A stretch of 64,000 nt of DNA from an uncultured Maribacter sp. (GTDB lineage: Bacteria; Bacteroidota; Bacteroidia; Flavobacteriales; Flavobacteriaceae): the NCBI GenBank assembly GCA_947498505.1, contig CANMKG010000001.1, positions 496,001 to 560,000 on the forward strand. Reading direction: 5' to 3'. Under the pieces are notes generated by a model. The model was not told the DNA's origin. It saw only the letters and a list, made by a program, of their open reading frames with translations, and did no database searches. The translations under genes were made by a program, and so were the position numbers. Below, one piece after another: positions 40,629 through 63,863 of the stretch (position 1 is its first letter; each line of letters opens with the position of its first letter).

Positions 40629-41702
40629 TTAATTACTTCTATTTGGATTTTTATCAGCTTTAAATTTTCTACTTGTAGAAATAGTAAAATCATTGCCATC
40701 AGAAGTTACAATTACATCATTTTGATAAATGGCTTGAATTTCCCTAACATTTTTTGGCATTGAATTTCTTGTTGTACCCCAAGAAGTTTGTATTACTCTA
40801 TATACTTTTGCTTCAGCTAGTCTATTCAGCACATTTCTATTAGGGTGTGAATGGCGATTACCATTTCCTGCGGATATTATTGCTATTATTGGTTTTATAG
40901 ATTCTAAAAACTTTTTTTCAGATGCATTATTTCCTCCGTGATGATTCACGTGTAAAACATCAATAACTATGTTTTTATTTTTGATATATTCTCCTACTTT
41001 TTCTTCTATTTTAGCATCCTCATTACCATATCTTCTACCAATTAAATCACCAGAAATTAGAAAATCAAAATCTTTATACTTAATTAAAAAAGAAAGGCTT
41101 CTTTCATTTTCTGTATTTACATCATCTACTTTTCTTGAACCATCTTTTATAAAGCCATTAGCAGCTAAAGCATAAGCCTTAGCTCCCTTTCCTAAATCAA
41201 TTTCAAAATCATTTAATTTAGATTGACTATCTAATGATATTCTATTTTTTGAATCAGCAATAACTTTGTATTTTCTATAAGCTTGAGAACTTGGGGGATA
41301 TTTATCACCTCGGTCAACAAAATTGATAACTTTAATATCGTCTCCTCCACCTGGTTTCTCATCATAACCTAGCAAAAGACTTGTCCCGTGAACGCCTCCA
41401 GAAACAATCCCTCCTATGTGGTCAGCATCATAATGACTAATTATTACGTAATCTAATTGTTTAATACCTCGTTTAGCCAATACTGTTCTCAATATGTTAC
41501 CTCCATCTCTACCTGAAATATTACCAGCATCAAATAATACATTTACTCGTTTTCCATTGCTTTGTTTTGGCCCTTGAATTATAGTTGCATCTCCTTGACC
41601 TACACGAACATTAATTATTTTTAAATCTTGTCCATTTAAAAAAGAAGTCAATAATAGTACATTAACTAAAATTAAATTTTTAAGTTTTTTACAAATATTC
41701 AT
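40629..41702 (-). CDS. Exported MBL-fold (ComEC/Rec2 C-terminal-like) hydrolase
   Basis: Signal peptide (LILVNVLLLTSFLNGQ); IINVRVGQGDATII, FDAGN, ISHYDADHIGG, SGD and HVNHHGG motifs. Confidence 0.88.
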   Translation of the reverse strand: MNICKKLKNLILVNVLLLTSFLNGQDLKIINVRVGQGDATIIQGPKQSNGKRVNVLFDAGNISGRDGGNILRTVLAKRGIKQLDYVIISHYDADHIGGIVSGGVHGTSLLLGYDEKPGGGDDIKVINFVDRGDKYPPSSQAYRKYKVIADSKNRISLDSQSKLNDFEIDLGKGAKAYALAANGFIKDGSRKVDDVNTENERSLSFLIKYKDFDFLISGDLIGRRYGNEDAKIEEKVGEYIKNKNIVIDVLHVNHHGGNNASEKKFLESIKPIIAIISAGNGNRHSHPNRNVLNRLAEAKVYRVIQTSWGTTRNSMPKNVREIQAIYQNDVIVTSDGNDFTISTSRKFKADKNPNRSN

Positions 41703-44876: not shown

Positions 44877-45341
44877 TCATTTAGTTTTGAATAGACGGAT
44901 ATCAAATTCAAAAGCCTCTACATTCAGAATCTTAACTTTTGAGACTTCCTTGTGTAAAGGATTTATTAAAACATTATAGTCCCCCGATACTACTGCTGAG
45001 GGAACTTGTAGAATTAATGTTTTCTGCTCATCCACAAATGTGTCACCGATTTCTTGAGTTAAATATGATGGAGGGTTTGATTTCCAATTTATGCCTTTTA
45101 GGTCTTTTTCAGTAATACTTGACATTTCCGAATCGGGAATTTCGATTGAAATCATGAAATAGTCTTTTGGTAGTTTATTAAATGGAACATGCACAGCAAC
45201 CTCTGACATAGCCAAGGCTCTTGATGACGCCGTATATATTAATTTAGTTCCTTTGTTATTCCATCTTCCTCCGTAGAGTTCTGCTCCAGTACCAGATAAA
45301 TCAGTTTTATATTTACCTTTAGAAATTCTGAATACAATCAT
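44877..45341 (-). CDS. RES-domain toxin
   Basis: MIVFRISKGKYKTDLSGTGAELYGGRWNNKGTKLIYTASSRALAMSEVAVH. Confidence 0.9.
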   Translation of the reverse strand: MIVFRISKGKYKTDLSGTGAELYGGRWNNKGTKLIYTASSRALAMSEVAVHVPFNKLPKDYFMISIEIPDSEMSSITEKDLKGINWKSNPPSYLTQEIGDTFVDEQKTLILQVPSAVVSGDYNVLINPLHKEVSKVKILNVEAFEFDIRLFKTK

Positions 45342-45934
45342 GCTAAAATGCCATGTTCTATTCTACCTAACTCATCCTTTACAATTCCTAAACCAACCGA
45401 AGTATCTAGTAAATCTCCAGGAACAATACCTCCTACCGCAATATTTTCACTCATTAACCAATCGTGAAAATTTTCCTTATCTCCAAATACCTCTTCCCCA
45501 TATTGCATTAACTGTTGAATTTCGATAATCTTTTCAGTTTGTTTTGGAGCGAAAGTTTTGTTGTCTTTTTTATATCGAACAAGTGTGCGCAAAGTAGTGT
45601 CCAAAATAACAGCCCAATCTTTATCTCTTAAGGGTGTTTTAACTGCAACGCTTTCAAAAGTTTCATAATCAATACCATCTCTAATAACTGTCACCAATTC
45701 AAAGCCGCGAGAATCATCATTCCAATCATATGAGACCGATTCAATAAGTTTTTTTGGTTTTCCTTCAAAGGTAATTTTAAAGACATTTTTGCGAACATCT
45801 ACTTTCTCTCTTACTGTTGTTTTCTTATCCACAGTTTTCCCTGCAGAAACTTTTTTATGTAAACTAACCCCTTGTCTCACATATTTTACTTGTTCTGACT
45901 GTTTGGCTTTATTTTTTGTTCTTTTAATTGCCAT
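45338..45934 (-). CDS. Xre/MbcA/ParS-type antitoxin with long N-terminal extension
   Basis: C-terminal EVFGDKENFHDWLMSENIAVGGIVPGDLLDTSVGLGIVKDELGRIEHGILA. Overlaps the RES gene by 4 nt. Confidence 0.85.
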   Translation of the reverse strand: MAIKRTKNKAKQSEQVKYVRQGVSLHKKVSAGKTVDKKTTVREKVDVRKNVFKITFEGKPKKLIESVSYDWNDDSRGFELVTVIRDGIDYETFESVAVKTPLRDKDWAVILDTTLRTLVRYKKDNKTFAPKQTEKIIEIQQLMQYGEEVFGDKENFHDWLMSENIAVGGIVPGDLLDTSVGLGIVKDELGRIEHGILA

Positions 45935-46176: not shown

Positions 46177-46782
46177 TTATTCCTCTTTTTTTACATGGCG
46201 ACCTGGTTCCCAGTCTTCTTTACGTAAGTTTTTCGTAGCAAAGTTTAAAGGTGTTTTTTCAAGTTCGGTTGCAACGGTATCATTCCACCGATTGAGTAAC
46301 CCAAATACAGTAATCATACCCATTATTTCCATTATCTGGCGAGTGTTGTAATGCTGTTCAAGTTTTTTGAAATGCGCATCGGTTGCCGCATTTGGTTGTA
46401 CTCCTGCAGCAAAAGCCAAATCAAGAGCAGCACGTTCTGCATCTGAAAATAATGGATTACGGGCATACTCCCATACGTGTTTAATTTTTTCAGCATTTAC
46501 ACCAACCATTTTCACGGCACCATGGGCTGTATGGGCTTGACAATATCTACAGCCTGCGGCACCGCTGACAATTGTGGCAACCATACGTTTCAAAGACATA
46601 TCTAGTTCGCCCGGTGCATAGACAACATCTACAAGAGCTTTTACTGCCGATAAATACGCTGGCCAACGTGCCATAGTTAAAACATCATTTGGGGTAAAGC
46701 CCATTAGTTCTTCAGCATATTTCAAGTCCATACGCACGTTTTCCGGTAATTCATCTAAACTAAGTGGAGAAATTCTAGCCAT
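46177..46782 (-). CDS. Carboxymuconolactone decarboxylase-family (AhpD-like) protein
   Basis: GAAGCRYCQAHTAHGA CxxC motif. Confidence 0.88.
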   Translation of the reverse strand: MARISPLSLDELPENVRMDLKYAEELMGFTPNDVLTMARWPAYLSAVKALVDVVYAPGELDMSLKRMVATIVSGAAGCRYCQAHTAHGAVKMVGVNAEKIKHVWEYARNPLFSDAERAALDLAFAAGVQPNAATDAHFKKLEQHYNTRQIMEIMGMITVFGLLNRWNDTVATELEKTPLNFATKNLRKEDWEPGRHVKKEE

Positions 46783-47035
46783 AATTTATTTCTTGGATTA
46801 TTAACTAATTGTGTCTAAAAGGGCCTATTATCACCCGTAGTGCATTTTGATTGAAAGACAAAAAGTTATGCAAAATGCTTAATATCAGTAAATTGTAGTG
46901 ACAACAAAACAATTTCAATGCAAAACTTTGATGTAATTTACTAAAGAATATTGGAAATATTAAAAGGAATAACTCCGGAACAATTAGCAAAACTAGCCAT
47001 TCCACCTCCCTCCTTCCTACGATTTCGCTCTGAGA

Positions 47036-47057
47036 TGTCGGGTCGCATACTAAGTGT
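47036..47057. repeat. Dispersed repeat core (also at 51582-51603)
   Basis: tgtcgggtcgcatactaagtgt vs tgtcggctcgcataataagtgt (20/22). Confidence 0.65.
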
Positions 47058-47343
47058 CAGATATTTCCTTGAAGGTTTTTTTGCGCTTAAGGAGCATATC
47101 TCTGATGATTAACAAAGACCATTTTATAACCTGCAACATCTAGTGAAGATATGATTGGACAGCCAGAGCGAAATTCTTTTTTCATATTGTACATATTACT
47201 ACATCAATTCGATAGTAATTGTTATTTTCACTAATACGGAATTATTTTTATGCTACGCATTGCAACACCCTCATTTTCACTTTGATGTAATGCTATATTG
47301 TTTGAACAATTTTGTATCAAAATTTACTATAAAAAAAGAACTA

Positions 47344-48243
47344 ATGTTTAAAAAAACGTATTCAGGATATGTATTTCTTATTCTAATGATGATTGCATTT
47401 ATATTGACACAATGCAAAGCTCAAGTACAATTAATTTCTAAACCATGGGAGTATAATAACAATCGCTTAGCAGTTAGCTATGACGGTAATAGTGAGCCAG
47501 ATAATGCCTATAAATGGCCAACAGGAGATCCCGATGACTGGGGAGCTGCCGCAGCCTCTTTAGCAATTATTGCAAAGTTGGGCTTGCAAGATAAGCTTGT
47601 ACATTGCTCATACAATAATTTTATTGATGCTCCTGCTGGTCCTGATAATGAAAATGAACTTAAAATAAGTTGCGATGGGGCTATAGAAAGATGGGATTTT
47701 GATGGAAGTAAATTTTTTGATGTAACAAAACAACTTGAAGCATCTAAACTTAATTTGGCTTCAGAAATGAGCAAATCAACTGCTGCCAACCCTTTATATT
47801 TTATGCACGCAGGTCTTTCAGAATTTTTATATCAAGTTGTAGAAGAAGTTATAAAGCAGGGCAATATTGAAACACTTAATCATGTATATCTTTTATCTCA
47901 TAGTGAGTTTAATGAAAAAGAAAGAAGACGAAATTATCATAGAACTTGGAATGATGTTCAGGAATTATGTGGGAATCGTATTAAATATAGGAAAATTAAA
48001 GATCAAAATAATAAAACTGTTCCAACCGATTTATGGCATTCACAAAAAGACTTTTCTGTTTGGTATTGGATGCGCGATCATAAAGACCCCGATGTAAAAT
48101 GGATGTATTCTAGACTAGAAGCTCATAGTGGAGGCGATGCAGATATTTCTGATTGTGGCTTATTCTATTACCTGTTAATGGGAGATGATAATGGTAGTCC
48201 TGCTAAATTCGAAAAATTTATTGGAGATGGTATTATGAATTAG
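47344..48243 (+). CDS. Lipoprotein, possibly nucleoside-hydrolase-like
   Basis: Lipobox (FILTQCKAQ). GDPDDWGAAAASLAIIAKLG resembles the DxDxxxDD motif. ATG 47344 preferred to the listed 47155 start. Confidence 0.55.
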   Translation: MFKKTYSGYVFLILMMIAFILTQCKAQVQLISKPWEYNNNRLAVSYDGNSEPDNAYKWPTGDPDDWGAAAASLAIIAKLGLQDKLVHCSYNNFIDAPAGPDNENELKISCDGAIERWDFDGSKFFDVTKQLEASKLNLASEMSKSTAANPLYFMHAGLSEFLYQVVEEVIKQGNIETLNHVYLLSHSEFNEKERRRNYHRTWNDVQELCGNRIKYRKIKDQNNKTVPTDLWHSQKDFSVWYWMRDHKDPDVKWMYSRLEAHSGGDADISDCGLFYYLLMGDDNGSPAKFEKFIGDGIMN

Positions 48244-48322
48244 TTCATACTTTTTTTAAATCATTAATTCTATCAATTGAAATTGCAAAATTTATTTAAT
48301 TTAAATTGAAAATATACTTCAT

Positions 48323-49624
48323 ATGAAATATAAAATTATCTTGACTTTAGTCTTATTTTCTTTTACCATGTCATGTAAAGCGCAGGATTTATATTCCAAT
48401 GTTTGGATTGATAAAAATGAAAATGAAAATTACACAGCACGCCATGAATGTTCTTTTGTTCAGGCTGGAGATAAATTTATAATGTTTGGTGGTCGAGAAT
48501 CTGCAAGGAAGTTAGACAAGTACGATTTTGAAACGGATACATGGAGCAGTAATACTAATTTTGCGCCTAAAGAGTTTAATCATTTTCAAGCTACATTTTA
48601 TAAAGGATTTGTTTGGGTAATAGGAAGTTTTAAAACGAATAGTTTTCCTAGAGAGGTTCCTGAAGAAAATGTTTGGTTATACTCCCCTTCATTGGATACT
48701 TGGATAAAGGGTCCAGAAATTCCTAAAAATAGAAGAAGAGGCGGCGCAGGTTTAGTTGTTTATAAAGATGTCTTTTACTTAATAGGAGGAAACACAATTG
48801 GTCATGATGGTGGTTATGTTAATTGGTTTGATTCGTATGATCCAAAAACAAATACTTGGACTATTTTACCCAATGCATCTCAAGAAAGAGATCACTTTCA
48901 TGCGGGAGTAATAGGCAATAAATTATATGCTGCTGGTGGAAGAAAATCTGGAGGAGATGGTGGTGTTTTTGCACCTTTGGTCGGTGTGGTTGATACGTAT
49001 GATTTTGACACCAAAAAGTGGTCTGTTCTTAAAACTGACTTACCAACACCAAGAGCTGCTCCTGGTATAGCTACGTTTAAAGGGGAATTATTTGTTATGG
49101 GTGGCGAAAGTGAGCACACGGGTCCTGCATATAAATTGGTTGAAGCATATAATCCAGCAACTCAAAGCTGGTCTAGAAAGGCTGACATGCATTTTCCTAG
49201 GCATGGAACACAAACTATTGTATCTGGAAATGGTATTTATATAGCAGCAGGGTCTCCAAAACGTGGTGGTGGAAAACAATTAAATATGGAAGTGTATAAT
49301 GAAGATAAACCGCAAGGAAATGTAATTACCGCTTCTTATTTGGAGGCTCCTGAATTAGTTGTAGTAAAATCGGGGAATAAAGCCATTGTTAAAATAAAGA
49401 ATACGGGTGGAAATTCTGCAAGCTTTATTAATTCTGTGATTTTAAGTGATGCGTCTAGCTCTAAATTTAAAATTAACTCCGATTACAATTTAAAATTAGT
49501 AGATGCCAATAGTACTTTTGAAATTGAAGTAGCTCATATCGGTGACTCAGTAAAAGACATAGGATATATAATGGTTAGTTATAATGGGGAATTGACAAGA
49601 AAAATCCAGCTAGTTTGTGAATAA
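48323..49624 (+). CDS. Kelch-repeat beta-propeller lipoprotein
   Basis: Lipobox (FTMSCKAQ); repeated GGR/GG..W Kelch blades; C-terminal Ig-like domain. Confidence 0.9.
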   Translation: MKYKIILTLVLFSFTMSCKAQDLYSNVWIDKNENENYTARHECSFVQAGDKFIMFGGRESARKLDKYDFETDTWSSNTNFAPKEFNHFQATFYKGFVWVIGSFKTNSFPREVPEENVWLYSPSLDTWIKGPEIPKNRRRGGAGLVVYKDVFYLIGGNTIGHDGGYVNWFDSYDPKTNTWTILPNASQERDHFHAGVIGNKLYAAGGRKSGGDGGVFAPLVGVVDTYDFDTKKWSVLKTDLPTPRAAPGIATFKGELFVMGGESEHTGPAYKLVEAYNPATQSWSRKADMHFPRHGTQTIVSGNGIYIAAGSPKRGGGKQLNMEVYNEDKPQGNVITASYLEAPELVVVKSGNKAIVKIKNTGGNSASFINSVILSDASSSKFKINSDYNLKLVDANSTFEIEVAHIGDSVKDIGYIMVSYNGELTRKIQLVCE

Positions 49625-49691
49625 ATCACACAAATAGTTAAACAATAATATACAGAATTCTGTAATCAATTGAAAATTAGAGAGAATAATC

Positions 49692-49778
49692 CAATATTTT
49701 ACGTATCAAAACTTGGCTCCTATTGTCGATTTCAACAAAAGTTTAATTTAAGTAGCTATAATTATTCATTATGTAAAA
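49692..49778. repeat. Related hairpin/repeat: ATTTTACGTA...GTAGCTATAATTATTCATTATGTAAAAT
   Basis: Right half matches the element at 35040-35066. Confidence 0.55.
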
Positions 49779-49791
49779 TTGTTCTGGAATG

Positions 49792-51303
49792 CTATTGCTC
49801 AGGCACAAGGCGTATCAATCTACCAGGGCCCTCTACCGCTATATAAAGATAACCGTCTGTTCCCATATGCGCATCACGTATCCTACCTATACCGTTTAAT
49901 AGTGTTTCATGACCAATCACTTCATTCCCATCCATCTTTAAACGATGGAGATATTCGAACTTGAGTGAGCTTACAAACAAATCGTTTTTCCAATTTTTAT
50001 AAAAATCACTGGACACAAATGTCATTCCACATGGTGCAATGGAAGGAGTCCAGTAATATATTGGCTGTTCCATCCCATCCAATTCGGTAAGGTCTGTAAA
50101 TGTAGTTCCATCATAATTGATACCATATGAAATCACAGGCCAGCCATTGTTGTTCCCCGCTTCCAAAATATTGATTTCATCACCTCCTTGGGGCCCATGC
50201 TCTCCCTCCCAAACTGACCCAGTTTCAGGGTGCAGACTCATTCCTTGAGGATTGCGCGTTCCATAAGTGAAAATTGAATTGACCGCTCCCGATGTATTAT
50301 AAAAAGGGTTGTCGGTAGGTATTTCGCCGTCATCATGGATACGGTGTATTTTTCCGTGGGCATTGTCCAGTTCCTGAGGGTAAGTATCTCTATTCCCACG
50401 ATCACCCACGGAAACGTATAAGTAGCCATCGTTATCAAATAAGAGCCTAGAACCATAATGATGAGAACTACTGAGATACGGAAGTGCCGTAAATATGTTC
50501 TCTACTTCAATCAAGTTGTTACCCTCAAGCCTAGCTCTTGCAACGGCAGTCGTCCGCTCGGATGCATTATTTGGATTGACACGGGAATAGGATAGATACA
50601 CGTATGCATTGTTTTCAAAATCTGGATGTATGAGCACATCCAGCAACCCACCCTGCCCTTGCGAAGCTACATCTGGGACACCGGTAATTGCTGTCAATTG
50701 TTTGTTATTATTTATCAAAAATAGCCCTCCCCCACGTTCGGTCACCAAAATTTCACCATTGGGCAATTGTGCTATCCCCCAAGGAATACCGGGAATCTCA
50801 TCGGTTAAGGTTTCCAGTCGGAAGGTGAGGTCATCGGATGAGATTAAACCTGATAAATCAGGATTTTCCTCCTGTAACATCGTTTTGGTTTTTCCATCGA
50901 TCTCCGTAAGTATATAGTTGGTCAAATCCTCGATTGCTTGCGCACCTAATGCAGTCCCGTATGCTGGCATACCATTGCTTGTATACCCTTCGGTTATGGA
51001 ATTTATAACATCTTCATGAGAATTACCGTAGGTCCAATCACGTTCCACAAATGAGCCTAGGTCTTGTCCATGGCAACCTCCACAGTGGTTTCTGTAATTG
51101 AGGGTGACATTTCCTAAATCAACAATTTCATTGTCTGGGTCAATTTCTTCTTCGGGAGACACAGGTTCCGACGAATTGTTACAGCTCAGCAGTATGGACA
51201 AAAAAGACAACAATACCAATTTCGATGTTGTTTTCAACCATTTGCAAGCGCACTTTAATTCGAAAGTCATTTCAGAAAACTGATTTGAAGTAATCGGGGC
51301 CAT
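49792..51303 (-). CDS. PQQ-dependent glucose/sorbosone dehydrogenase-like protein with N-terminal cytochrome c domain
   Basis: CGGCHGQDLG heme motif; ITERGGGLFLI, GDRGNRDTYPQELDNAHGKIHRI and EGEHGPQGGDEIN motifs. Confidence 0.9.
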   Translation of the reverse strand: MAPITSNQFSEMTFELKCACKWLKTTSKLVLLSFLSILLSCNNSSEPVSPEEEIDPDNEIVDLGNVTLNYRNHCGGCHGQDLGSFVERDWTYGNSHEDVINSITEGYTSNGMPAYGTALGAQAIEDLTNYILTEIDGKTKTMLQEENPDLSGLISSDDLTFRLETLTDEIPGIPWGIAQLPNGEILVTERGGGLFLINNNKQLTAITGVPDVASQGQGGLLDVLIHPDFENNAYVYLSYSRVNPNNASERTTAVARARLEGNNLIEVENIFTALPYLSSSHHYGSRLLFDNDGYLYVSVGDRGNRDTYPQELDNAHGKIHRIHDDGEIPTDNPFYNTSGAVNSIFTYGTRNPQGMSLHPETGSVWEGEHGPQGGDEINILEAGNNNGWPVISYGINYDGTTFTDLTELDGMEQPIYYWTPSIAPCGMTFVSSDFYKNWKNDLFVSSLKFEYLHRLKMDGNEVIGHETLLNGIGRIRDAHMGTDGYLYIAVEGPGRLIRLVPEQ

Positions 51304-51581
51304 AATTATTCAAATTAAATTGGTGATGAAAATCTATAACTTACAGAGTACCACAGACGAATCTATTTTACAGTATCATAGCACTTAATGTATCAACCTT
51401 ATATTATATGTAACGTTATTTATGAAATTAAAGTATTGGGTTAAATTACCAAAAGACCCCTCGATATCAGCAGATTACTACTAAGAGCTCGTTTAATGAG
51501 ACGGTTATGTAAATAAAGGAGAATTAGTCAAGGTTTCAATACCAAACACTTTTACCTCCCTTATGGTTTCGTCCCCCGTAG

Positions 51582-51603
51582 TGTCGGCTCGCATAATAAG
51601 TGT
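51582..51603. repeat. Dispersed repeat core
   Basis: See 47036-47057. Confidence 0.65.
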
Positions 51604-51765
51604 TTATTGATTGCTAGTTTATTGTTTTTAAAGGTATTCATGAACCTTGTAAAAAGACTTGATTTCATCTTTTAGAAGAAACCTTTAGGAAGAAAAAGAA
51701 GATAGTAACGATTTACCAGTGCTGAGACTAAAGTCAAGAAAGTTTATAAGGTTATTTTATCTTAA

Positions 51766-52611
51766 TTAAAAAGGAAATAAATCTGGTTCTACAAATTCTC
51801 TTTTAGCGTTAGTAGATTTAAATAAATCAAAACTATAATGACTGCCTATTAAACCGTTAAAGTTGATTTTCAACTGTATGTTTTCAGCAATAAAATCTTT
51901 AAAATTGTTTGTGTTAGATTTTTGCATAAAATGATTCATTATTTTCATGGCAATCAAAGTAATGGTTACATGATATTTATCTTGGGCGCCAACATGAGTC
52001 ACAAAATTACGTAACAGCTCTTGGATTTGCACTTCGGTTTTTTTTAACCCATATGTATCAATAAGTAACCATGCCAACCGCAAATGAGCTTCATGACTAA
52101 ATAGTTCTGGGTTTAAAGTGCAATTTGAAAACTGTTTAACAAACTCTTCATCAGAAAGTTGGAAATGTGCTTCTATATTTTCTTTCACTTTAACTTTTTT
52201 AATATTTCCATTAATCCATTGACTTCGCGCTTGTTTTGAAAATAAAAGTTCCTTTGTATAATATCGTAGCGGTGTATATTTTGATGCCATTTCAGTTTTA
52301 AAGAAATTGGCACAGGCTTCTTCCAAACGATCGAACCTGTTTTCTTTTAAAAAATTAGATGTTAGCACCATCCAAAATACCGTTAGGGTTTCATGGTAGC
52401 CAGAGTTTTCGGTATTTGGTGTACCAACCGAAATATTATATGCTTTGATTTTAGTACGTATTAAATTAAGGGCATTTTCAAAATTGTAATTAAAATTATA
52501 CCACAACGCAACCGTAATATGAGCATCATGTGTCCACTTTTCTTTTTGCAATAATTTTTTGGAAAATTGTGTAACTAAGTTTTCAATTTCGGTGATTGAA
52601 TTCTTGTTCAT
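51766..52611 (-). CDS. Hypothetical protein with internal domain duplication
   Basis: WTHDAHITVALW...GYHETLTVFWM and FSHEAHLRLAWL...KYHVTITLIAM. Confidence 0.75.
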   Translation of the reverse strand: MNKNSITEIENLVTQFSKKLLQKEKWTHDAHITVALWYNFNYNFENALNLIRTKIKAYNISVGTPNTENSGYHETLTVFWMVLTSNFLKENRFDRLEEACANFFKTEMASKYTPLRYYTKELLFSKQARSQWINGNIKKVKVKENIEAHFQLSDEEFVKQFSNCTLNPELFSHEAHLRLAWLLIDTYGLKKTEVQIQELLRNFVTHVGAQDKYHVTITLIAMKIMNHFMQKSNTNNFKDFIAENIQLKINFNGLIGSHYSFDLFKSTNAKREFVEPDLFPF

Positions 52612-52695
52612 TTCTTAGTGTTAATGTATACTTTACTTTGTTTTTGGTTTTAAATTACCTTCTACAAAAGTATAGTTACGACAAATGGTTTTCGT

Positions 52696-53232
52696 TTACA
52701 TTTGTTGATAAAATTGCTTTCTTGCTCTACTTAATTGAGTGGGCGTAATTCCAAGAAAATTGGCAACTAAATAATGTGGGATTCGGTTTATTAGGTTAGG
52801 ATACTCTTTTAAAAACAGTTTATACTTTTCTAAAGAATTTAAATTGATTAGAGATACTAACCTTGATTGCAATTGGGTATTGAGCGTATGAAAAGCCTTA
52901 TTTATGATATTGGTTATTTCAATATTCTTGTTTACATAAGACATTATCTCTTTGAAACTTCCTATAGAAATAGTACAATCTTCTAGTGCTTGAATATAAA
53001 GTGTTGAGGCAACATTTGGAATGTAACTAGCCAGAACCATATCTTTTTCCTGGTAAAAATGTGTTGTTATTTCGTTTCCATCTTCATCAATCACATAACC
53101 TCGAAGCACTCCAGTTACTAATTGCCCAATGTACATGTTGAGTTGACCTTTTTTAACGAATAAATCTCCTTTTTTTAATGTTATGGTTTTATGGAGCGAT
53201 GCTACAAGCATATTTAAATAGTCTTTACACAA
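52696..53232 (-). CDS. Crp/Fnr-type cyclic-nucleotide-binding regulator
   Basis: KKGDLFVKKGQLNMYIGQLVTGVLRGYV and IPHYLVANFLGITPTQLSRARKQ HTH. Confidence 0.9.
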   Translation of the reverse strand: MCKDYLNMLVASLHKTITLKKGDLFVKKGQLNMYIGQLVTGVLRGYVIDEDGNEITTHFYQEKDMVLASYIPNVASTLYIQALEDCTISIGSFKEIMSYVNKNIEITNIINKAFHTLNTQLQSRLVSLINLNSLEKYKLFLKEYPNLINRIPHYLVANFLGITPTQLSRARKQFYQQM

Positions 53233-53316
53233 AGATATTTAAATGGAATGAAGATGGGCATAATAAGTATTTCACAACCTACGTCAATAAATTTAAGTTA
53301 ACCGTAAAATTCCATA

Positions 53317-54171
53317 TCATTTTATCAGGGCCGATAACCAGTACATACTTTGCACTGCGGTCATAGGAAATGCGGTTTGATGGCTACCTTCTATAATTAC
53401 AGGCTTCAACAACAAGCTCTTATCATTTCTGGATGTAAGTATGCTAATGAATTTTTCAGCGTTGGCACCTAACTCTTTTTCTAAAGCACCGTATGAAACT
53501 AAAACATTTGCATTTAGCTTTTTGTGTTTAAACTTAAGTTCCGAAAGTAGCGGAATATCATTATTAAGCGATGGACTGCCAAGAATGTAGTTTTTAAATG
53601 TATCTGGTTGTGCTAGTAATATATATGCTCCTAATTCACCTCCCATAGAATAGCCAAAATAAGCATGGTTATTTTCATCGGTTTGATAATTGTTTTCTAC
53701 ATACTTTATGACATCATTTTTAATAAAATTTAAATGGTATTCTGCTCCTCCATACTGATATTTAGCTTGATGTTCTTTGTTATCTGATTTCCTAATGGAG
53801 TAATCTCGATATCTACTTACATGTTCCCCTATTTCCTTTTTTAAGTTTTCATCAATATCTTTTTGCCATGAAATTCCAACCAGAATAGCATCTTCCAATA
53901 GGTATTCAGTTGTACCCGAAAGTATTTCTATATGCCACATCGCATCCGTGAAAAATAGTACGGGGTACTTTTTGTTACTCTTTTCTGAATACCCTTCTGG
54001 AAGTTTTATATAAAGTTCATAATGCCTATCTGTGTTTGTATCTGTTATAGGAACTACTTTTACGCGAGGCAATTCTAAGGGCGATTTTTTGGTGTTATTG
54101 CTATCACTTTTTTGAGCAAAAACAGGACATATTGTTATAAGAAATATAAAAACAAAACAGAGGTTTCTCAT
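53317..54171 (-). CDS. Alpha/beta hydrolase, Fes/IroE-type esterase-like
   Basis: YFGYSMGGELGAYIL nucleophile elbow, EGSHQTAFP. Confidence 0.85.
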   Translation of the reverse strand: MRNLCFVFIFLITICPVFAQKSDSNNTKKSPLELPRVKVVPITDTNTDRHYELYIKLPEGYSEKSNKKYPVLFFTDAMWHIEILSGTTEYLLEDAILVGISWQKDIDENLKKEIGEHVSRYRDYSIRKSDNKEHQAKYQYGGAEYHLNFIKNDVIKYVENNYQTDENNHAYFGYSMGGELGAYILLAQPDTFKNYILGSPSLNNDIPLLSELKFKHKKLNANVLVSYGALEKELGANAEKFISILTSRNDKSLLLKPVIIEGSHQTAFPMTAVQSMYWLSALIK

Positions 54172-54200
54172 TGTTACGATTTTATTATTATTTACAATTA

Positions 54201-55394
54201 TTACTCCGCAAAAGCAGGCAAAATTCTCTCTGCTACTATTTGCAGGGTGCTGTTATCGTTATCATGAGACGTAACTACAATCATTAAATCTAACTCTTCA
54301 ATTAGAATAATATATTGACCGCCACCGCCTTGAGCAGATACGCTGAAATAGCTTTTATCCTTGTATTTTAAATCTGCACTCCACCAGTAATAACCGTAGC
54401 CTTGATTCGAAACATCTTTACCTCCACCATAGACATCATCATCACCAGTTACAAGTATTCTACTGGTAGCTTTGGAAATAAAGGCTTCAGGAATCAGCTG
54501 TTCGCCTTTCCATTTACCTTTGTTCGAAGTTAAGATTCCCCATTTGACCATATTTCGCGATGTCATACTCGACCTACTTGCAGACACAGGAAGACCGTTA
54601 ACGTCAGTCTCCCAACCATAAGTTGTTATCCCCATTTTGTCAAGGAGTTCTTTTTTAATAAAATCTTGAGCAGTTCCTGGTACCACAGCTTCAATAACTT
54701 GCATCACCAACCTTGGGTCGTCTTGATACAAAAAACTTTGAGACGCTGAAGTAATAGGCTCACTGTGTTCAAGAAAAGTCTGAACTTGTTTTTGACCTTT
54801 TAATTGGGCAGGCGTTTTCTCAAATGCTTTTCGTTGTTCTTTACTAAGGCGAATACCAGAACGCATCGTCATTGCCTTGTGTAGTGTGATTTTTTCTGCG
54901 CCCTCAACAAATTTTGAGGGGTCCAAGTCTTTTAGAAAGCTAATTAAAGGCTTGTCTAAATCGGACATAGTCAGATAACCCAACTGTATGGCTCTACCTA
55001 GTGCTAAACAAGTATAAGCTTTAGTTGCTGATGCTTGAAAATGAGGTAGATTGATGCGACCTTTTCTATAATAGGATTCAAAGATCAGTTTGCCTTTGTA
55101 AGCAATAAGAAAACTGTCATTAGGGTCAAGTTTATTATCTGCTATTTCTTGTGCTAACGTAATAATCATTGTTTTATCTCCCCCATCAATACCCAATTTG
55201 CCGACAGCGATATTGTCCTTTTTATCCTCCGGTGTGGCATCTATAAAGGCCTGTTTGAGTTCAGGAATATCTCTGAAAGAGAGTGTGGTTTCGGCTGTTG
55301 TAGCCTTAGGTGCAACGCTATTACTTTGCTGGGAAAAACCAGCATTGGTTAGTATTAGTACTATTAAAAGTAGTCCTCCTGTTTTGTTTTTCAT
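54201..55394 (-). CDS. Serine hydrolase, beta-lactamase/PBP family
   Basis: Signal peptide; SATKAYTCLALGRAI (SxxK) and YYWWSADL; GGGGQYI. Confidence 0.9.
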   Translation of the reverse strand: MKNKTGGLLLIVLILTNAGFSQQSNSVAPKATTAETTLSFRDIPELKQAFIDATPEDKKDNIAVGKLGIDGGDKTMIITLAQEIADNKLDPNDSFLIAYKGKLIFESYYRKGRINLPHFQASATKAYTCLALGRAIQLGYLTMSDLDKPLISFLKDLDPSKFVEGAEKITLHKAMTMRSGIRLSKEQRKAFEKTPAQLKGQKQVQTFLEHSEPITSASQSFLYQDDPRLVMQVIEAVVPGTAQDFIKKELLDKMGITTYGWETDVNGLPVSASRSSMTSRNMVKWGILTSNKGKWKGEQLIPEAFISKATSRILVTGDDDVYGGGKDVSNQGYGYYWWSADLKYKDKSYFSVSAQGGGGQYIILIEELDLMIVVTSHDNDNSTLQIVAERILPAFAE

Positions 55395-55428
55395 GATTTT
55401 TAGTATTTATAAACGAAGTGGTAATGGA

Positions 55429-56325
55429 TTAGAGTTTAGGTCTTAACTCATCAATGATTTTAGCATCTACCCAATATTTGGTAGACTCCCAATAGGTACT
55501 TCCATCTTCCTTTACTTTTTCTTCAGACCTTGAAAAAAGCAAGTATTTCCCATCTGGTGTTAAAAAAGCACCATTTTCCACCAATTCAGTATTTATCTTA
55601 TTTCCCATATTTACAGCTGGCCCCCATGAACCATCTTTCTGTCTAAAACTGATATAATTGTCAGACCTACCGTATCCATCTTCTCGCTCACTACCCCATA
55701 TTAAGAAGGATTCATCCGGTGCTATAAAGGGGTGTGCTGTCCATTTACCTGAGTTAATTTCCTTTCCGAGTAATTTTGGTGCTTCCCGTTTGCCATTTAT
55801 AATCCTTGATATACGAATGACATCGTTACTTTTATAATCGTCAAAAAGGATAGTTCCTTTATCGGAAACTGACAAAACCATAATGCCCCAATCTTCTCTA
55901 TCAAACATGGGACCCAGACTTTTTATTTTTGACCAACCTGTAGCCGTACGTTCAATATAGTTATGCCTTGAGTATAGTATGTCGCTATTTTTAGAACCAC
56001 TATGGCGAAATGTGTATTTATTAGTTTTGTAATAATTCCCACCTTGTTTATAAACCACAACAGCTGGCTCAAAAGGATTGTTGCCTGAGTACGTAAAGTA
56101 AAACTCCTCCATATTCAAAGAGCCCTCATACCCTAATTCCCAATCTTTAGAAGTATCCGCTTTGGGAACAAAAATTTCAGGAGTTAGCCCTGGCGTATTA
56201 TATCCGAAGTATGGATTTTCGATTGTTGAAGCATCATTCTCTATTGTTTCTGGTGCCTCAGTTTTACAAGCAGTAATAAGTATCGCAAATACCAGTATGT
56301 ATAATTTTATAGCAAGATTTTTCAT
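55429..56325 (-). CDS. PD40/WD40-like beta-propeller lipoprotein
   Basis: Lipobox (AILITACKTE); IAPDESFLIWGSEREDGYG and TPDGKYLLFSR repeats. Confidence 0.78.
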   Translation of the reverse strand: MKNLAIKLYILVFAILITACKTEAPETIENDASTIENPYFGYNTPGLTPEIFVPKADTSKDWELGYEGSLNMEEFYFTYSGNNPFEPAVVVYKQGGNYYKTNKYTFRHSGSKNSDILYSRHNYIERTATGWSKIKSLGPMFDREDWGIMVLSVSDKGTILFDDYKSNDVIRISRIINGKREAPKLLGKEINSGKWTAHPFIAPDESFLIWGSEREDGYGRSDNYISFRQKDGSWGPAVNMGNKINTELVENGAFLTPDGKYLLFSRSEEKVKEDGSTYWESTKYWVDAKIIDELRPKL

Positions 56326-56530
56326 GTATATTGCTTTTGTGTAAGTTTCACTCTTAATAACAGTTATTGCATAAAAGTATAGTATAATTTATGTCTAAAA
56401 CCATAAAAAGGATGTATGGAACAGTTACATGATAAAACCGTTTCGTCATTGATATACCACTTTTATAAGAAATTATGGAATGCTGCATTTGTAGATAGTA
56501 TCTTTATATTCTTCATTAATAGAACTCATC

Positions 56531-57553
56531 TTGAAAATAGTTATGTTTAAAAAGTCTTTGAAGAATACCATACTCATTAATGCAGGCGCTTTTTTACTGG
56601 TTGCTATGCTAGAAATATTGAGTGTGTGGTCCATCAAAGAGAAATTTGATAGTCAGTATAATTTTTATAAATGGCAATTAAATTTTGCAGTTTTTATTAT
56701 GTTAATTATATGGATGAATCATTTTATTCTCATTCCCTTTTTTCTAGATAAGAAGCGATATGTTTTATACGGAATACTGCTCATTGGAAGCATATTTTTG
56801 GGTTCTTATTTAAAAGGTTATACAGATGGACATGGCACTTTTAAATCATTTTTCTTTTTTATTTATACCACAGGAACGGGTATGGCTGCTTTTTTTTTAA
56901 GAAGAAGTATACTCATGCAAAGAGAAAATGCTGAGAAAGATAAATTGCAAAGAGATATGGAGCTTAATTACCTGAAGGAGCAAGTGAATCCTCATTTTTT
57001 ATTTAACTCATTAAACAGTATTTATTCACTTTCCAGACAGCAGTCAAAGGAAACTCCTGATGTTGTAATGCAGCTTTCAGAATTAATACGATATCAGTTA
57101 GAGAGTTCTAAAAAAGACACTGTTTTATTGAGGGAAGAACTTGAGTTTATAGAGAATTATTTATTGCTTGAAGAAAAGAGATTAAGTAAGCGTTGTATTA
57201 TTGAATTTTTAATTGAAGGTGATTTGTTGAACTTAAGAATTGCTCCAATGCTGTTAATTCCGTTTGTTGAAAATGCTGTTAAACATGGTGCTCAAAGTAC
57301 TAATGAACAAAGTACCATTGATATCTCTATATCTATTAAAAACACCAGCCTCCACTTTTGTGTAATTAACTCAAAACCTTCTATGGTTTCTGAATCGAAA
57401 AGAAAAGGAATGGGGCTTGAAAATGTAAAAAGACGTTTAAATCTATTATATCCTAATTCCCATGTATTAGAAATGGATGATAAGGAAAAGGTATATCTTA
57501 TAAATTTGTCTATTGATTTAAAAGATTCAATACAAAACACAGTGAATGATTAA
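56531..57553 (+). CDS. LytS/YehU-type sensor histidine kinase
   Basis: TM helices; LKEQVNPHFLFNSLNSIYSL (His_kinase) and IAPMLLIPFVENAVKHG. Confidence 0.94.
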   Translation: MKIVMFKKSLKNTILINAGAFLLVAMLEILSVWSIKEKFDSQYNFYKWQLNFAVFIMLIIWMNHFILIPFFLDKKRYVLYGILLIGSIFLGSYLKGYTDGHGTFKSFFFFIYTTGTGMAAFFLRRSILMQRENAEKDKLQRDMELNYLKEQVNPHFLFNSLNSIYSLSRQQSKETPDVVMQLSELIRYQLESSKKDTVLLREELEFIENYLLLEEKRLSKRCIIEFLIEGDLLNLRIAPMLLIPFVENAVKHGAQSTNEQSTIDISISIKNTSLHFCVINSKPSMVSESKRKGMGLENVKRRLNLLYPNSHVLEMDDKEKVYLINLSIDLKDSIQNTVND

Positions 57554-57605
57554 AATAGGTATCATAGATCATCTTACATTGCTAATTTAGAAAAGGTTAC
57601 AAAGG
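57546..57605 (+). pseudogene. Collapsed LytTR response-regulator remnant
   Basis: atgattaaaataggtatcatagat matches the start of the intact regulator (63120). It is followed directly by acattgctaatttag...gttacaaagg, matching 63685-63712 near that gene's 3' end, then a stop. Confidence 0.75.
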
Positions 57606-57616
57606 TATACAGGCTT

Positions 57617-58558
57617 TTATTTTATTTTTCCGTTTAGTGCTAGGTTATATTCCAATTCTAATTGACTGACAATCTTAGAAACTGGAAGTATAGCTTTTGT
57701 GGCGCCTACCCCTTGGCCCGCAGACCAAATGTCTTTCCAAGCTTTGGCGCGCGATTTTTCATCATCAATCATTACTTTACTTCTCGGTTTCATCAGTTCC
57801 TCTTTTGTTATCCCTGTTTTCTCGATAGAAGGAAGCAAATAATTAGCCTCTACACCAGTAAAAAATGGAGAAGCTATGATATCTTCAACGGTACTATCTA
57901 TCAACATGTTACGGTATTCATCGGAAGCAAGGCTTTCACGCGCCGAAATAAAATGGGTTCCCATTGAAACAAGGTCTGCTCCTAAAAGTTCCATGGCTCT
58001 AATCGCAAAGCCATTACCAACAGAACCGCCAGCAATAATCGGTCCTGAAAAGACTCTTCTAACTTCAGGAATAAAAGCAAAAGGGCTTAATTGCCCTGTA
58101 TGTCCGCCTGCTCCAGAACAAACAAGAACAAGGCCATCAATACCCGCTTCAATAGCCTTATGAGCATGTTTCATGGAGTTGACATCGGCAAAAACCAAAC
58201 CACCATAGGTGTGAACTGCCTCTAATACCGGACCTGGGTGACCTAAAGCACTAATTACAATTGGAGGTTGATGCTTAACAATAAGGTCTAAATCTGATTG
58301 TGATCGGGGATTGCTCCGATGTACAATAATATTTGGAATAGCCAAACCTGAATCCAAAGCAATATTAGCTAACCAATCATCTAATATTTCAGGTTTACGG
58401 GCATTTAACGTAGGGAAACCACAGGCAATTTTATTAGATAAACAAGCCGTGACAAGCTCTGGTCCTGATACCAAAAACATTGGGGCGGCAATAATAGGTA
58501 GCCGCATATCTTTTCGAATGGCATCAAACTTTTTTCGACTTTCTTCTATAGTTCTCAT
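57617..58558 (-). CDS. Nitronate monooxygenase family protein
   Basis: PIIAAPMFLVSGPEL, GLVLVCSGAGGHTG and GPIIAGGSVGNG. Confidence 0.92.
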   Translation of the reverse strand: MRTIEESRKKFDAIRKDMRLPIIAAPMFLVSGPELVTACLSNKIACGFPTLNARKPEILDDWLANIALDSGLAIPNIIVHRSNPRSQSDLDLIVKHQPPIVISALGHPGPVLEAVHTYGGLVFADVNSMKHAHKAIEAGIDGLVLVCSGAGGHTGQLSPFAFIPEVRRVFSGPIIAGGSVGNGFAIRAMELLGADLVSMGTHFISARESLASDEYRNMLIDSTVEDIIASPFFTGVEANYLLPSIEKTGITKEELMKPRSKVMIDDEKSRAKAWKDIWSAGQGVGATKAILPVSKIVSQLELEYNLALNGKIK

Positions 58559-58694
58559 TGTTGTTTGTTTTAAATTTTCACCAAGTATGTATAAATTTCA
58601 AGTTAATACCATAGTATTAAAATTCATTTTTACTATGTTCGTTTTCTTCAACAAGCGTAGTTCCTTTTACTCGATAATCGAGATTTAGATGCTC

Positions 58695-58757
58695 CGACGC
58701 TTGCGTCGAAATCAATGCTAATTTTCCTTCTAATACCTCGTGAGCTTGCCCCGAGGT
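58695..58757. repeat. REP-like hairpins
   Basis: cgacgc-tt-gcgtcg (58695-58708) and acctcg...cgaggt (58735-58757). Confidence 0.55.
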
Positions 58758-58812
58758 TGTTTACTTTGAGGTCATCGAAAAGCATCTTCGCTTAATTACG
58801 AATTCATGATTT

Positions 58813-59613
58813 TTACTCCCAAAAGAAGGCCGTTTGGTTGGTAACAGCCAATAAAACTCCTGATCGCGACCAAACCCGTCCATTTTGATGATATGTGCCA
58901 TTTCGAATACAATGACTATCCCCTTCAATCAGAACAAACTCCGATTCATTTTTGTTTAATTCCCTAGCTGTTGAAAATAAGCTAACACTGTAGCTAAAAG
59001 TTGCTATTGGAAACATATTATCCGACATAAAATATGGTCGGGGCGCCATAGTATCACACAATGAAACAATTGCCTTTGCATCTAATGCACGCCCCTCTTT
59101 ATCCTTTGTCCATACCGCACTGTAGGGAGTAGTGTTTTTTTTAAAAGCCGTTCCCAATACTGGGCGTTGGTCATAAAATTGCATCCATCTAGGACCTCTT
59201 GTGACATCCTGAGGCTTAACACCTTCTGGATCAACCACCTTAGGAAAAGGAGGTTGAAAATTAATGTTGGATGTTTGAACTAAAGATGTTGTAATATGAC
59301 ATTCATACAAAATGCTGTTTTCCTCATTCGTTTTACAGATTTTAACCTGCCAGAAATCTGTAGTTTTACCGCTATGGATTTTTTTTGTAAAAATGAAAAT
59401 GATTCCTTCCTTAATAGGGAGTACCATGGTAGCGTCTAAATGTACTATATCACCACGAAAGTCTGGCTCACTAACTACGGCCTCGATTGCAATTGCAGCA
59501 GACCACCCACCGAAAGCACTATTAAAATTCCAATAGTCTTTGCTGACTAAAGCTGTAGAATATGCATCTTCCGTTTTGGTCAATAACGTTTCAATATCTA
59601 ATTTGTATGGCAT
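58813..59613 (-). CDS. Acyl-CoA thioesterase (TesB-like)
   Basis: FGGWSAAIAIEAV double-hotdog start; RPYFMSDNMFPIATFSYSVSL. Confidence 0.8.
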   Translation of the reverse strand: MPYKLDIETLLTKTEDAYSTALVSKDYWNFNSAFGGWSAAIAIEAVVSEPDFRGDIVHLDATMVLPIKEGIIFIFTKKIHSGKTTDFWQVKICKTNEENSILYECHITTSLVQTSNINFQPPFPKVVDPEGVKPQDVTRGPRWMQFYDQRPVLGTAFKKNTTPYSAVWTKDKEGRALDAKAIVSLCDTMAPRPYFMSDNMFPIATFSYSVSLFSTARELNKNESEFVLIEGDSHCIRNGTYHQNGRVWSRSGVLLAVTNQTAFFWE

Positions 59614-59859
59614 AGTTTTCGCCTCTATCGGATTTGTATATTGGGATTTTCACCTACGTTGCAAAGCTGTGTTAGTAAAAGGTTAATTTTCTCTCAATAT
59701 AATAGTTAATAAAGTTAACTATTATATTTAACTATTCATAGCTCTGACCCTAAATACAATATAAATCCAAGCAACATACCCAATTGCCTCTAATAGAAAA
59801 ATAGACGCTACGAACTTAAGTATTAAAAAATCCTGATCTTCCACTACCCTGGAATCGAC

Positions 59860-61119
59860 CTAGTCTTTCTTATTACCTATCAAACTTGACCGACTCTTAA
59901 CCCGAACTAAAAGAAATAAAATTAGTGCTGTTAAGCAAAGCCCTATCATCAACTGAATACTAGTAACATAAGACCCCGAATAATCGCTCATTTTGCCAAG
60001 CACCACTATTCCAGCAACCGAAGCAAGCGTATCAATAGTTAGTACTACCCCTAAAATTTTTCCATAAGATGGACCAGAATAAAGCTCCGCAATCATTATT
60101 TGAATCATGGTGAATACACCACTATAGGCAATACCATAAGTAAACGCATACCAGTATGGGGATAATTCGATAGTTTTGATTGCTATAATATAAAGAACTA
60201 GGTTACCAATAATTAGCAAAAGAATGGACCAAGCCATTATTGACTTTTTGTTAAAGCTATCACTCAAAAAACCGAATATTAATTTTCCAACAACGCCAAA
60301 TAGAAAAAGGGCTGAACCAACATTGGTAACTTTGCTCGAACTCAAACCCAGTTCTTTTTGGAAGAAAATATCTTGATGCTGGCCAAATCCAATGATACAA
60401 AACCAAAGTGCTGCAGTTGTCAAAAAAATGAGATAGAGTTCTGGTGAGCGAAACGCTTGTGCAAGTGACGGCCCGTCTTGTATTGACTTATGTCCAGAAT
60501 TCCTTTCTATTCCATCAGGAAATAGACCTTTTTCCGAGGGGTCTGTTCTAACCAAGGTCCAAGGAATTATCATAAACAGAAAAGCGAGGGCAGCCAGTAA
60601 CAGCGTTGTGTTTTGCCATCCAAACATATCAATCGCATCACCTGTTACTTTGTTGAAAAAGGCCGCGCCAAGACTACCTCCTAATAATAAAATACCTACG
60701 GCTTTACCTCGATGCCTACGAAACCAGCGTGTAAGGATATACATGCTAGATGCCATTCCTGCACCAGCCACACCGAATGAAAAGACAATGTAAATAGCCA
60801 TAAAATGATTTAAACTAGACATCTGACTCATACCAACCAAGCCGATAAGAATGAGAGTTGCGCCAGCTAGTATAATTCGTTTTGGATTCCCGCGATCAAG
60901 TGCTGCACCAATAAACGGTGTTAAAAATGCAATGATAAAATAGAAAATCGAAATAGGTTGTGTCACCTCTGACTGAGTCCACCCGAAAGTCTCTATAAGA
61001 CTGGGATAAAATCGCTTTAACGAAAGGGTGACAATACCATTTACCGTAGCATAAATTGAACAAAGCGCTGCCAGTACCCACCAGCCAAAGAATATTTTTT
61101 TGTTATGTGTCTTTTTCAC
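59860..61119 (-). CDS. MFS transporter (OFA-like)
   Basis: 12 TM helices; WTQSEVTQPISIFYF, RWFRRHRGKAVGILLLGGSLG. Confidence 0.9.
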   Translation of the reverse strand: MKKTHNKKIFFGWWVLAALCSIYATVNGIVTLSLKRFYPSLIETFGWTQSEVTQPISIFYFIIAFLTPFIGAALDRGNPKRIILAGATLILIGLVGMSQMSSLNHFMAIYIVFSFGVAGAGMASSMYILTRWFRRHRGKAVGILLLGGSLGAAFFNKVTGDAIDMFGWQNTTLLLAALAFLFMIIPWTLVRTDPSEKGLFPDGIERNSGHKSIQDGPSLAQAFRSPELYLIFLTTAALWFCIIGFGQHQDIFFQKELGLSSSKVTNVGSALFLFGVVGKLIFGFLSDSFNKKSIMAWSILLLIIGNLVLYIIAIKTIELSPYWYAFTYGIAYSGVFTMIQIMIAELYSGPSYGKILGVVLTIDTLASVAGIVVLGKMSDYSGSYVTSIQLMIGLCLTALILFLLVRVKSRSSLIGNKKD

Positions 61120-61261
61120 CTTCTTAATTTACAATATTATTTCCAAAGTATAACATATGCCAAGTTAATTGCAAATATTCTACAAAGTGCCTTTACTTGT
61201 TGTTTTACAATAACTTACTAATGCAAACTTGGTCTAAATGAGAACGCTTTCACTAATTTCT

Positions 61262-61269
61262 TATATTTG
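61262..61269 (+). promoter_or_regulatory. TAnnTTTG -7 element
   Basis: TATATTTG 25 nt upstream of the CDS start at 61295; no clear -33 TTTG. Confidence 0.4.
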
Positions 61270-61294
61270 TGAAACTAATGACACATACTAATCT

Positions 61295-62803
61295 ATGGTG
61301 AATAATGAGCTCTTTTCAGATTGGTTACAACACTTTGCTGACAATGATGGTGAGCGTTTAGCAACAGTAGACATACACACCGGGCGTCATTTGACCTATT
61401 CCGAACTGAATGACCGTGCCAAACGACTGGCCAGTGGCCTGAAAAACAGGTTTACTATAGAAAAAAACAATCGTATTGCTATAATAGCAAACAATAGCAG
61501 TGACATTATAGAACTTATGTTTGCCTGTTGGAAATTAGGAGCAGTATTCATGCCTATGAATTGGCGTTTAAGTGCCTTCGAAATAGCAGAGATTTTCAAA
61601 GAAGCAGAACCTAGTGTAGTGATTTATGATTCGGAATTTTTAGAATTGTTGCAGCACACCAAATTACCAAGTCTCGAACGTCAAGAGAATCTGAAAACCA
61701 GTCCGTATGAGCAACTCATCACCGAAAGCCCGGCATCGATTACTATGCCCGGTGTTAGTTTAGATGATATGAATTCATTAATGTATACCTCTGGGACAAC
61801 TGGTGAACCTAAAGGGGTTATTGGTACATATCGCATGATCCAAACCAATGTATTACAGCAGGCATCAATAATAAACAGTGATTCGGTTTGTCTTACTTAC
61901 GCTCCACTTTTTCATACGGCAGGACTTAATGGATTCACAACGCCTTTGTTTCATTTTGGAGGGACGTTATACATCATGCGCGGATGGGATGCCGATATTG
62001 CTATAAAATACCTCAGTAGTGAAAAAATCGGTGTGACGCACACTCTTGGTGTCCCCTATCATTTAACTGTACTAAGTCAGCACTCGGACTTCGAGTCCAC
62101 TACTTTTCCTGCCTTACAAGTAATTGGTGTGGGAGGTGCACCTGCAAATCTGAAACTTATTGAACGCTGGTATGAAAAAGGAGTAGCGTTGTCACAATCA
62201 TATGGTATGACCGAAATATTCGGCCTAATCTTTCAACCACCAGAAGCCGCACGAAAAAATCCAAAGGCTGCCGGTAAGGCATTGATGTACACAGATGTTC
62301 AAATAGGTGATGACAACGGCAATCCTGTCGCAAGCGGTCAAACTGGAGAAATTCAAGTCAAAAGTTCCGGACTTACACCTGGCTATTGGAACAAGCCTAA
62401 ACTTACAGCGGCTTCATTTGTTAACGGATGGTTTAGAACTGGTGATGCCGGTTACGTAGATTCCGATGGTACCTTTTATATAGTTGACCGAATAAAAGAT
62501 ATGTATATTTCAGGAGGCGAGAATGTTTACCCCATTGAAATAGAAAATGTAATCTCAAAGATTCCAGAAGTTGCCATGGTAGCCGTTATTGGTGTTCCAG
62601 ATGAGCAATGGCAAGAGGTGGGTAAAGCTTGTGTTTTACTACGTCAAGGTACAAAGTTAACTGAAGAGGCAGTACTTGATGTTTGCCGCAAAAAATTAGC
62701 AAAGTATAAAGTGCCCAAGTCCGTTGAATTTTTATCGTCATTTCCAATCAGTGGACAAGGCAAAATACTTAAACGAGAACTGCGAAAAAAATACGAAGAA
62801 TAG
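61295..62803 (+). CDS. AMP-dependent acyl-CoA synthetase/ligase
   Basis: LMYTSGTTGEPKGV, YGMTE, GWFRTGDAGYVD and YKVPKSVEF motifs. Confidence 0.93.
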   Translation: MVNNELFSDWLQHFADNDGERLATVDIHTGRHLTYSELNDRAKRLASGLKNRFTIEKNNRIAIIANNSSDIIELMFACWKLGAVFMPMNWRLSAFEIAEIFKEAEPSVVIYDSEFLELLQHTKLPSLERQENLKTSPYEQLITESPASITMPGVSLDDMNSLMYTSGTTGEPKGVIGTYRMIQTNVLQQASIINSDSVCLTYAPLFHTAGLNGFTTPLFHFGGTLYIMRGWDADIAIKYLSSEKIGVTHTLGVPYHLTVLSQHSDFESTTFPALQVIGVGGAPANLKLIERWYEKGVALSQSYGMTEIFGLIFQPPEAARKNPKAAGKALMYTDVQIGDDNGNPVASGQTGEIQVKSSGLTPGYWNKPKLTAASFVNGWFRTGDAGYVDSDGTFYIVDRIKDMYISGGENVYPIEIENVISKIPEVAMVAVIGVPDEQWQEVGKACVLLRQGTKLTEEAVLDVCRKKLAKYKVPKSVEFLSSFPISGQGKILKRELRKKYEE

Positions 62804-62928
62804 ACACAGACTGGATTACAGGCATTGGACAGACAATTTATATTATCCCCTTCAAACCATATTTGTTTCATTACTTTATAGAAAAGCGTTCAATAGATAG
62901 GTCTGCCACTCTAAAAAATAGAATCCTT

Positions 62929-63119
62929 CATTTTTGTAACCTTCTATGATTACTGAATCGAAAAGAAAATGAATGGGGCTTGAAAATGTAAAAGGCGTTT
63001 AAATCTGTTATATTCTAATTCCCATGGATTAGAAATGGATGATAAGGAAAGGAAAGGAAAAGATATATCTTAATACATTTGTCTAGTGATATATAAGATT
63101 CAACACAAAAAGAAGGTTA
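62929..63119 (+). pseudogene. Decayed 3' fragment of the LytS-type kinase gene
   Basis: cttctatgattactgaatcgaaaagaaaatgaatggggcttgaaaatgtaaaaggcgtttaaatctgttatattctaattcccatggattagaaatggatgataagg matches 57379-57487 with indels and stops. Confidence 0.9.
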
Positions 63120-63815
63120 ATGATTAAAATTGGTATTATAGATGACGAAATACTAGCACGTAAAGTGTTAGAAGATTATTGTTCTAAAATTGACAACTTT
63201 GAAATAGTACTAAGTACAGGAAACCCAATTGAATTCATCAATTTTACTCAGCAAAATGAGGTTGACCTTATTTTTTTAGATATAGAAATGCCAGAACTTA
63301 ATGGTATGGAAATTTTGCGTTCTATGGTTAAACCTCCTAAAGTAATTTTAACTACAGCCTATTCTGAATATGCATTGGAAAGTTATAATTACGGCGTTGT
63401 AGATTATTTATTGAAACCTATAAAAATTGAACGTTTTTTAAAAGCAATAAACAAAGTTTCAGCTTCAAAAATATCAGAATCTAACAAAGCAAAAGGCAAT
63501 GAAGAACTTCAGATAAAACATGATGGAATTCCCGTTAATATTTCATTTAAATCCATTCTTTACATTCAGAGCTTTGGAAATTATTTAAAAATCTTTACAG
63601 ACTCCAGAATGTATTTGATTACAGAAACACTTGTTAATATGACGACATTATTGCCTGAGAGTTTCCAACGCTCACATAAATCATACATCGCTAATTTATA
63701 TAGAGTTACAAAAGCAACCAAAACACATTTGCAAATTGAAAATAATAAAGTTCCTGTGAGTACTACATACAAAGTTGTTGTTTTTAAAAAATTAGAGGCT
63801 TTGGCCAAATCATAA
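63120..63815 (+). CDS. LytTR-family response regulator
   Basis: KIGIIDDE, DLIFLDIEMPELNGMEIL, TTAYSEYALESY, KPI; C-terminal LytTR (SFQRSHKSYIANL). Confidence 0.95.
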   Translation: MIKIGIIDDEILARKVLEDYCSKIDNFEIVLSTGNPIEFINFTQQNEVDLIFLDIEMPELNGMEILRSMVKPPKVILTTAYSEYALESYNYGVVDYLLKPIKIERFLKAINKVSASKISESNKAKGNEELQIKHDGIPVNISFKSILYIQSFGNYLKIFTDSRMYLITETLVNMTTLLPESFQRSHKSYIANLYRVTKATKTHLQIENNKVPVSTTYKVVVFKKLEALAKS

Positions 63816-63863
63816 AATGGTAATTTTAATTTCGTACAAAATTTTATCCGATCTACTATTTCT

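Follow-up and report, generated by a model that had tools for sequence, protein, structure and literature searches.

In an uncultured Maribacter sp., the genes of a LytS/LytTR-type histidine kinase and response regulator have been parted by a block of metabolic genes, and a partial copy of the pair is left at each seam of the block. The locus lies near the end of the window, i.e. the whole stretch of 64,000 nucleotides that was analysed. About 30 empty sites and four filled alleles that have decayed to different degrees make up an unusually complete natural series, which appears to show how a metabolic block without an integrase can enter a site and pass from genus to genus with nothing but homology, and how a sensor and a regulator with overlapping genes can outlast their physical split, possibly under the transcription of the cargo. 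An integrase-free insertion with duplicated seams and spread between species is well supported; it is real and ordinary in kind, and its allele series is unusually well documented. The explanation that we find probable is one additive insertion that partly duplicated the kinase-regulator junction, after which the filled allele spread by its flanking homology and the redundant halves decayed.

The order in the window is intact kinase, regulator remnant, 5.2 kb of cargo, decayed kinase 3' end and intact regulator (Table 1), and both members of a LytS/LytTR pair, a His_kinase sensor and a regulator with receiver and LytTR domains, were found with Pfam. The preliminary description of this DNA had reported the same split with both outer genes intact, which we could reproduce, and its reading of the junction fragments as homologous to the intact genes was borne out by BLASTN, where the left junction (57375-57569) aligns with the right one (62938-63143) at 85% over 207 nt (E=2e-62). 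The match spans the kinase 3' end and the regulator start. A second, collinear match (82%) pairs 57571-57603 with 63680-63712 in the late part of the regulator, and the left remnant is therefore the start and the end of the regulator gene with about 540 bp deleted between them. The remnants thus exist as described, but their exact ends had to be moved, as the left one runs to about 57603-57611 and the right one starts before 62929; compared with the empty-site genome G002, the latter can be followed upstream as far as about 62893 and lacks 13 bp. The insert is flanked by a direct partial duplication of its target genes and the outer copies are intact, as in additive Campbell-type integration. 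Since the split structure is present in three other assemblies, it is not an assembly artefact. No Rfam families were found within 53-64 kb of the window.

Table 1. Features of the split kinase-regulator locus, in window positions
Feature	Position	Strand	Basis or remark
LytS-type histidine kinase, intact, 340 aa	56531..57553	+	His_kinase PF06580; orthologues adjoin regulator in about 30 empty loci
Left regulator remnant	57546..57611	+	Regulator start (to 57569) fused to late part (57571-57603)
NMO family (nitronate monooxygenase / FabK-like) protein	57617..58558	-	PF03060; PDB FabK/NMO matches
Acyl-CoA thioesterase (4HBT_3 / 4HBT_3C)	58813..59613	-	Family profiles; sampled-genome survey
MFS transporter (monocarboxylate/OFA-like)	59860..61119	-	PF07690; best NCBIfam SfMCT, below cut-off
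AMP-binding acyl-CoA ligase	61295..62803	+	PF00501
Right remnant, decayed kinase 3' end	62880..63119	+	Stops, frameshifts, 13-bp deletion
LytTR response regulator, intact, 231 aa	63120..63815	+	Pfam Response_reg + LytTR
Block common to filled loci in different neighbourhoods	53305..63825		Esterase, beta-lactamase-like hydrolase, (PD40 protein), kinase, cargo, regulator

An uninterrupted locus without the cargo block exists in the same genus, where kinase and regulator of G002 (locus L037) overlap by 8 bp. Such genes had been described as normally adjacent, and an ancestral adjacency of this pair agrees with the about 30 loci of relatives, other genera included, in which the two genes are always adjacent or overlapping (the count is of distinct kinase-regulator loci, as two rows duplicated one sequence). 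Empty sites are also present in the relatives G366 and G367, and the locus thereby has the unoccupied counterpart in close relatives that is looked for in genomic islands. A variant of the locus was seen in G023 (L164 3735-5784), where two kinase copies in tandem (89% at the amino acid level, dS 0.21) precede one regulator.

The filled allele, with homologous seams, was found in three other species. One is a Maribacter (G004, public record NZ_CANMDU010000006) with the same arrangement and 96% nucleotide identity to the window, and the others are two other Flavobacteriaceae, L071 and L072, which carry the cargo at the same kinase-regulator site. In L071, an additional gene between the regulator remnant and the NMO gene codes for an S8 protease of 1078 aa, which has MAM, fn3 and a sorting tail for type IX secretion and is predicted to be secreted. 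L072 matches both ends of this protease region but not its body, and a 3' scrap of the protease gene is left; the ancestral insert was therefore about 9 kb long and the form in the window is a trimmed one. The internal regulator deletion is common to the window, G004 and L071, and in L072 a further deletion at TAAAATAG took out the regulator remnant. Decay of the kinase fragment has gone least far in L071, whose copy still has an open reading frame that overlaps the start of the regulator. All four right fragments form one clade in the tree of kinase 3' ends (support 0.96), so the seams share one origin. The shared homology of the filled loci starts at window position 53305 and stops near 63814-63836, the neighbourhoods outside it being different, and the stretch from esterase to regulator acts as a discrete unit across the filled genomes.

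Between species, the dS of the cargo is 0.05-0.28, against 1.4 or more for gyrB. When the window is compared with G004, L071 or L072, the background dS is 1.5-1.9 for gyrB and 1.3-1.8 for lpxD, and uvrD is saturated or above 2.7, which makes the divergence of the block incongruent with that of the genome background, another mark of genomic islands. Between the window and L071, dS is 0.98 for the kinase and 0.72 for the regulator against 0.15-0.28 for the four cargo genes, and in the L071 pairs the cargo lies below the adjacent kinase (about 1.0), with Fisher tests on synonymous counts of kinase against cargo giving P=3e-23 for window-L071 and P=6e-34 for L071-L072. The contrast is weaker between the window and G004 (kinase 0.19 against cargo 0.05-0.16; regulator against cargo P=0.23), because kinase and regulator are themselves mosaic and exchanged. 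For the four filled genomes, the trees of cargo and gyrB branch in the same way and differ in depth alone. Such low cargo dS against the background means that the block is younger in these genomes than the species split and, judged from these divergences, it has moved horizontally between species at the same kinase-regulator site.

Kinase, hydrolase and esterase genes have been exchanged between genomes as well and are mosaic, and a low-dS tract common to the window and G004 continues beyond the regulator for at least about 16 kb, which is as far as the compared DNA reaches. In the right fragment of the Maribacter loci, the sequence changes from L071/L072-like to G002-like about 140 bp before the regulator, so recombination with resident sequence has taken place there, and in L072 a kinase of the Maribacter type is followed by a kinase fragment and 80 initial regulator codons that resemble those of L071. 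On the left side, most of the informative sites turned out to be changes private to L072 after polarising with outgroups, so no position can be given for the switch there, and the comparison does not separate circular from linear donors. As the filled allele has been exchanged across species and genera, the locus in the window may have arrived already split instead of arising by integration on the spot. Both this exchange and the larger original insert with its S8 protease had been overlooked in the preliminary description. The genes dprA and comEC were found in all five genomes; both are widespread, and their presence is no proof of competence.

The composition of the cargo is foreign-like, with a GC content of 38.9% above the 29.7% and 28.9% of kinase and regulator. 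Its thioesterase is absent from 350 other sampled genomes of Flavobacteriaceae, and in a scan of the 84,980-species collection of GTDB r220, ligases of >90% identity were found only in three other genomes, i.e. G004, L071 and L072. The next ligase relatives are proteobacterial (50-59%), several of them with an NMO gene nearby. In the PDB the ligase is nearest to feruloyl/fatty acyl-CoA synthetases, and the NMO/FabK-like enzyme is FMN-dependent; by these family matches, the cargo looks like a route by which an organic acid would be taken up and activated with CoA, the ligase being of the acyl- or aryl-CoA type. A plasmid origin was rejected, as PLSDB holds no near DNA match and the best plasmid thioesterase and transporter reach 28% each. 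The regulator now follows the ligase in the same orientation at a distance of 316 bp and no terminator-like site was found between the two, so that the regulator may rely on the cargo for its transcription, by readthrough from the ligase gene. The promoter scan of the regulator gave a single TAnnTTTG motif, which lies at 63074; matches of the sigma-70 type were no commoner than chance. With a dN/dS near 0.1 for each gene between the window and G004, kinase and regulator both seem to be still in use.

We hypothesize that an overlapping kinase-regulator pair, presumably translationally coupled, received a single foreign insertion of about 9 kb, made up of the S8 protease gene and the block of NMO, thioesterase, MFS and CoA-ligase genes. 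A single crossover with a segment of kinase 3' end and regulator leaves kinase, partial regulator, cargo, partial kinase and regulator in that order, and this additive topology would be the product here, with a duplicated stretch that takes in roughly the last 80 codons of the kinase and stops shortly before the end of the regulator. The redundant halves would then have decayed, the outer kinase and regulator being kept by purifying selection, and homologous recombination in the flanks would have carried the filled allele into further species and genera, with transformation as one possible route; for this later spread, homologous flanks are all that is required. Lineages would also have shed parts of the insert, such as the protease, which is gone in the window, G004 and L072. 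The original end points of the duplication are eroded and do not by themselves show an integration in one step.

Either a Campbell-type integration or a tandem duplication had been proposed beforehand, and the adjacency, the empty allele and the reciprocal partial copies at the seams all stood; the two routes would give the same final topology. A tandem duplication of the pair, followed by foreign cargo between the copies and loss of the opposite half from each, is a possible but rather unlikely history. The tandem kinases before the single regulator of G023 tell that tandem duplication with regulator loss occurs at the locus, but a cargo-free intermediate of two consecutive pairs was found at none of the about 30 loci, and the route requires two or more events. 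It is hardly credible that a single old insertion was inherited vertically with a slowly evolving cargo: the cargo tree ((window,G004),(L071,L072)) does agree with gyrB and all seams are of single origin, but the cargo dS is five-fold or more below that of gyrB and lpxD, the intergenic parts of the cargo, where aligned, are still 81-95% identical to L071, and G002, G366 and G367 are empty.

A site-specific mobile element or transposon that has lost its recombinase is very improbable. The two cargo ends of the window do resemble each other weakly in inverted orientation (77% over 31 nt), but the likeness is due to the remnants of regulator and kinase and is missing at the cargo ends of L071, and terminal inverted repeats were rejected on these grounds; the duplicated sequence is host kinase-regulator DNA. 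Among open reading frames and families, no integrase, transposase or tRNA, and neither a recombinase gene nor defined ends, were found in the window block or in the longer L071 version, and the earlier remark that no integrase or IS is visible extends to the fuller insert. We also doubt that the duplicated kinase 3' end is a portable homology address, by which a cargo circle, excised through recombination of the two copies, would re-enter any kinase-regulator junction of the family, repeatedly and between genera, as at a recombinase-free attachment site, although a second entry would fit the right fragment of the Maribacter loci, where L071-type sequence gives way to the resident type.

The single additive insertion that we favour is similar to Campbell-type (insertion-duplication) integration in that a truncated copy of each disrupted gene flanks the insert in the same orientation and the outer copies are intact, but the locus in the window is natural, old and decayed and its donor molecule is unseen. 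In pneumococcus, transformation brings in or removes genomic islands by homologous recombination in the arms on either side (Apagyi et al. 2017, PMC5850275), and there as here a block of 5-9 kb comes and goes between fixed flanks without an integrase; our block, in contrast, crosses species and genera and has duplicated seams, and its route of transfer is inferred. Merodiploids formed by transformation carry duplications of about 100-900 kb (Johnston et al. 2013, PMC3784515) and arise similarly by recombination with partly repeated donor DNA, whereas less than 1 kb is duplicated here, around an insert. A literature search found no precedent in Maribacter or of the Campbell type.

Elsewhere in the window, long tracts (23730-33012 and 46177-53232) have a dS against G002 that has fallen to 0.06-0.2, compared with about 0.6-1.0 otherwise, which may be a sign of recent recombination between species. 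A Gabija anti-phage system at 36757-40565, with GajB helicase (PADLOC 1e-204) and GajA nuclease (2e-152), is followed by an MBL-fold protein at 40629-41702. The Gabija stretch has no homologue in the syntenic region of G002, and the same stretch holds a RES-domain toxin with an Xre/MbcA/ParS antitoxin at 44877-45934.
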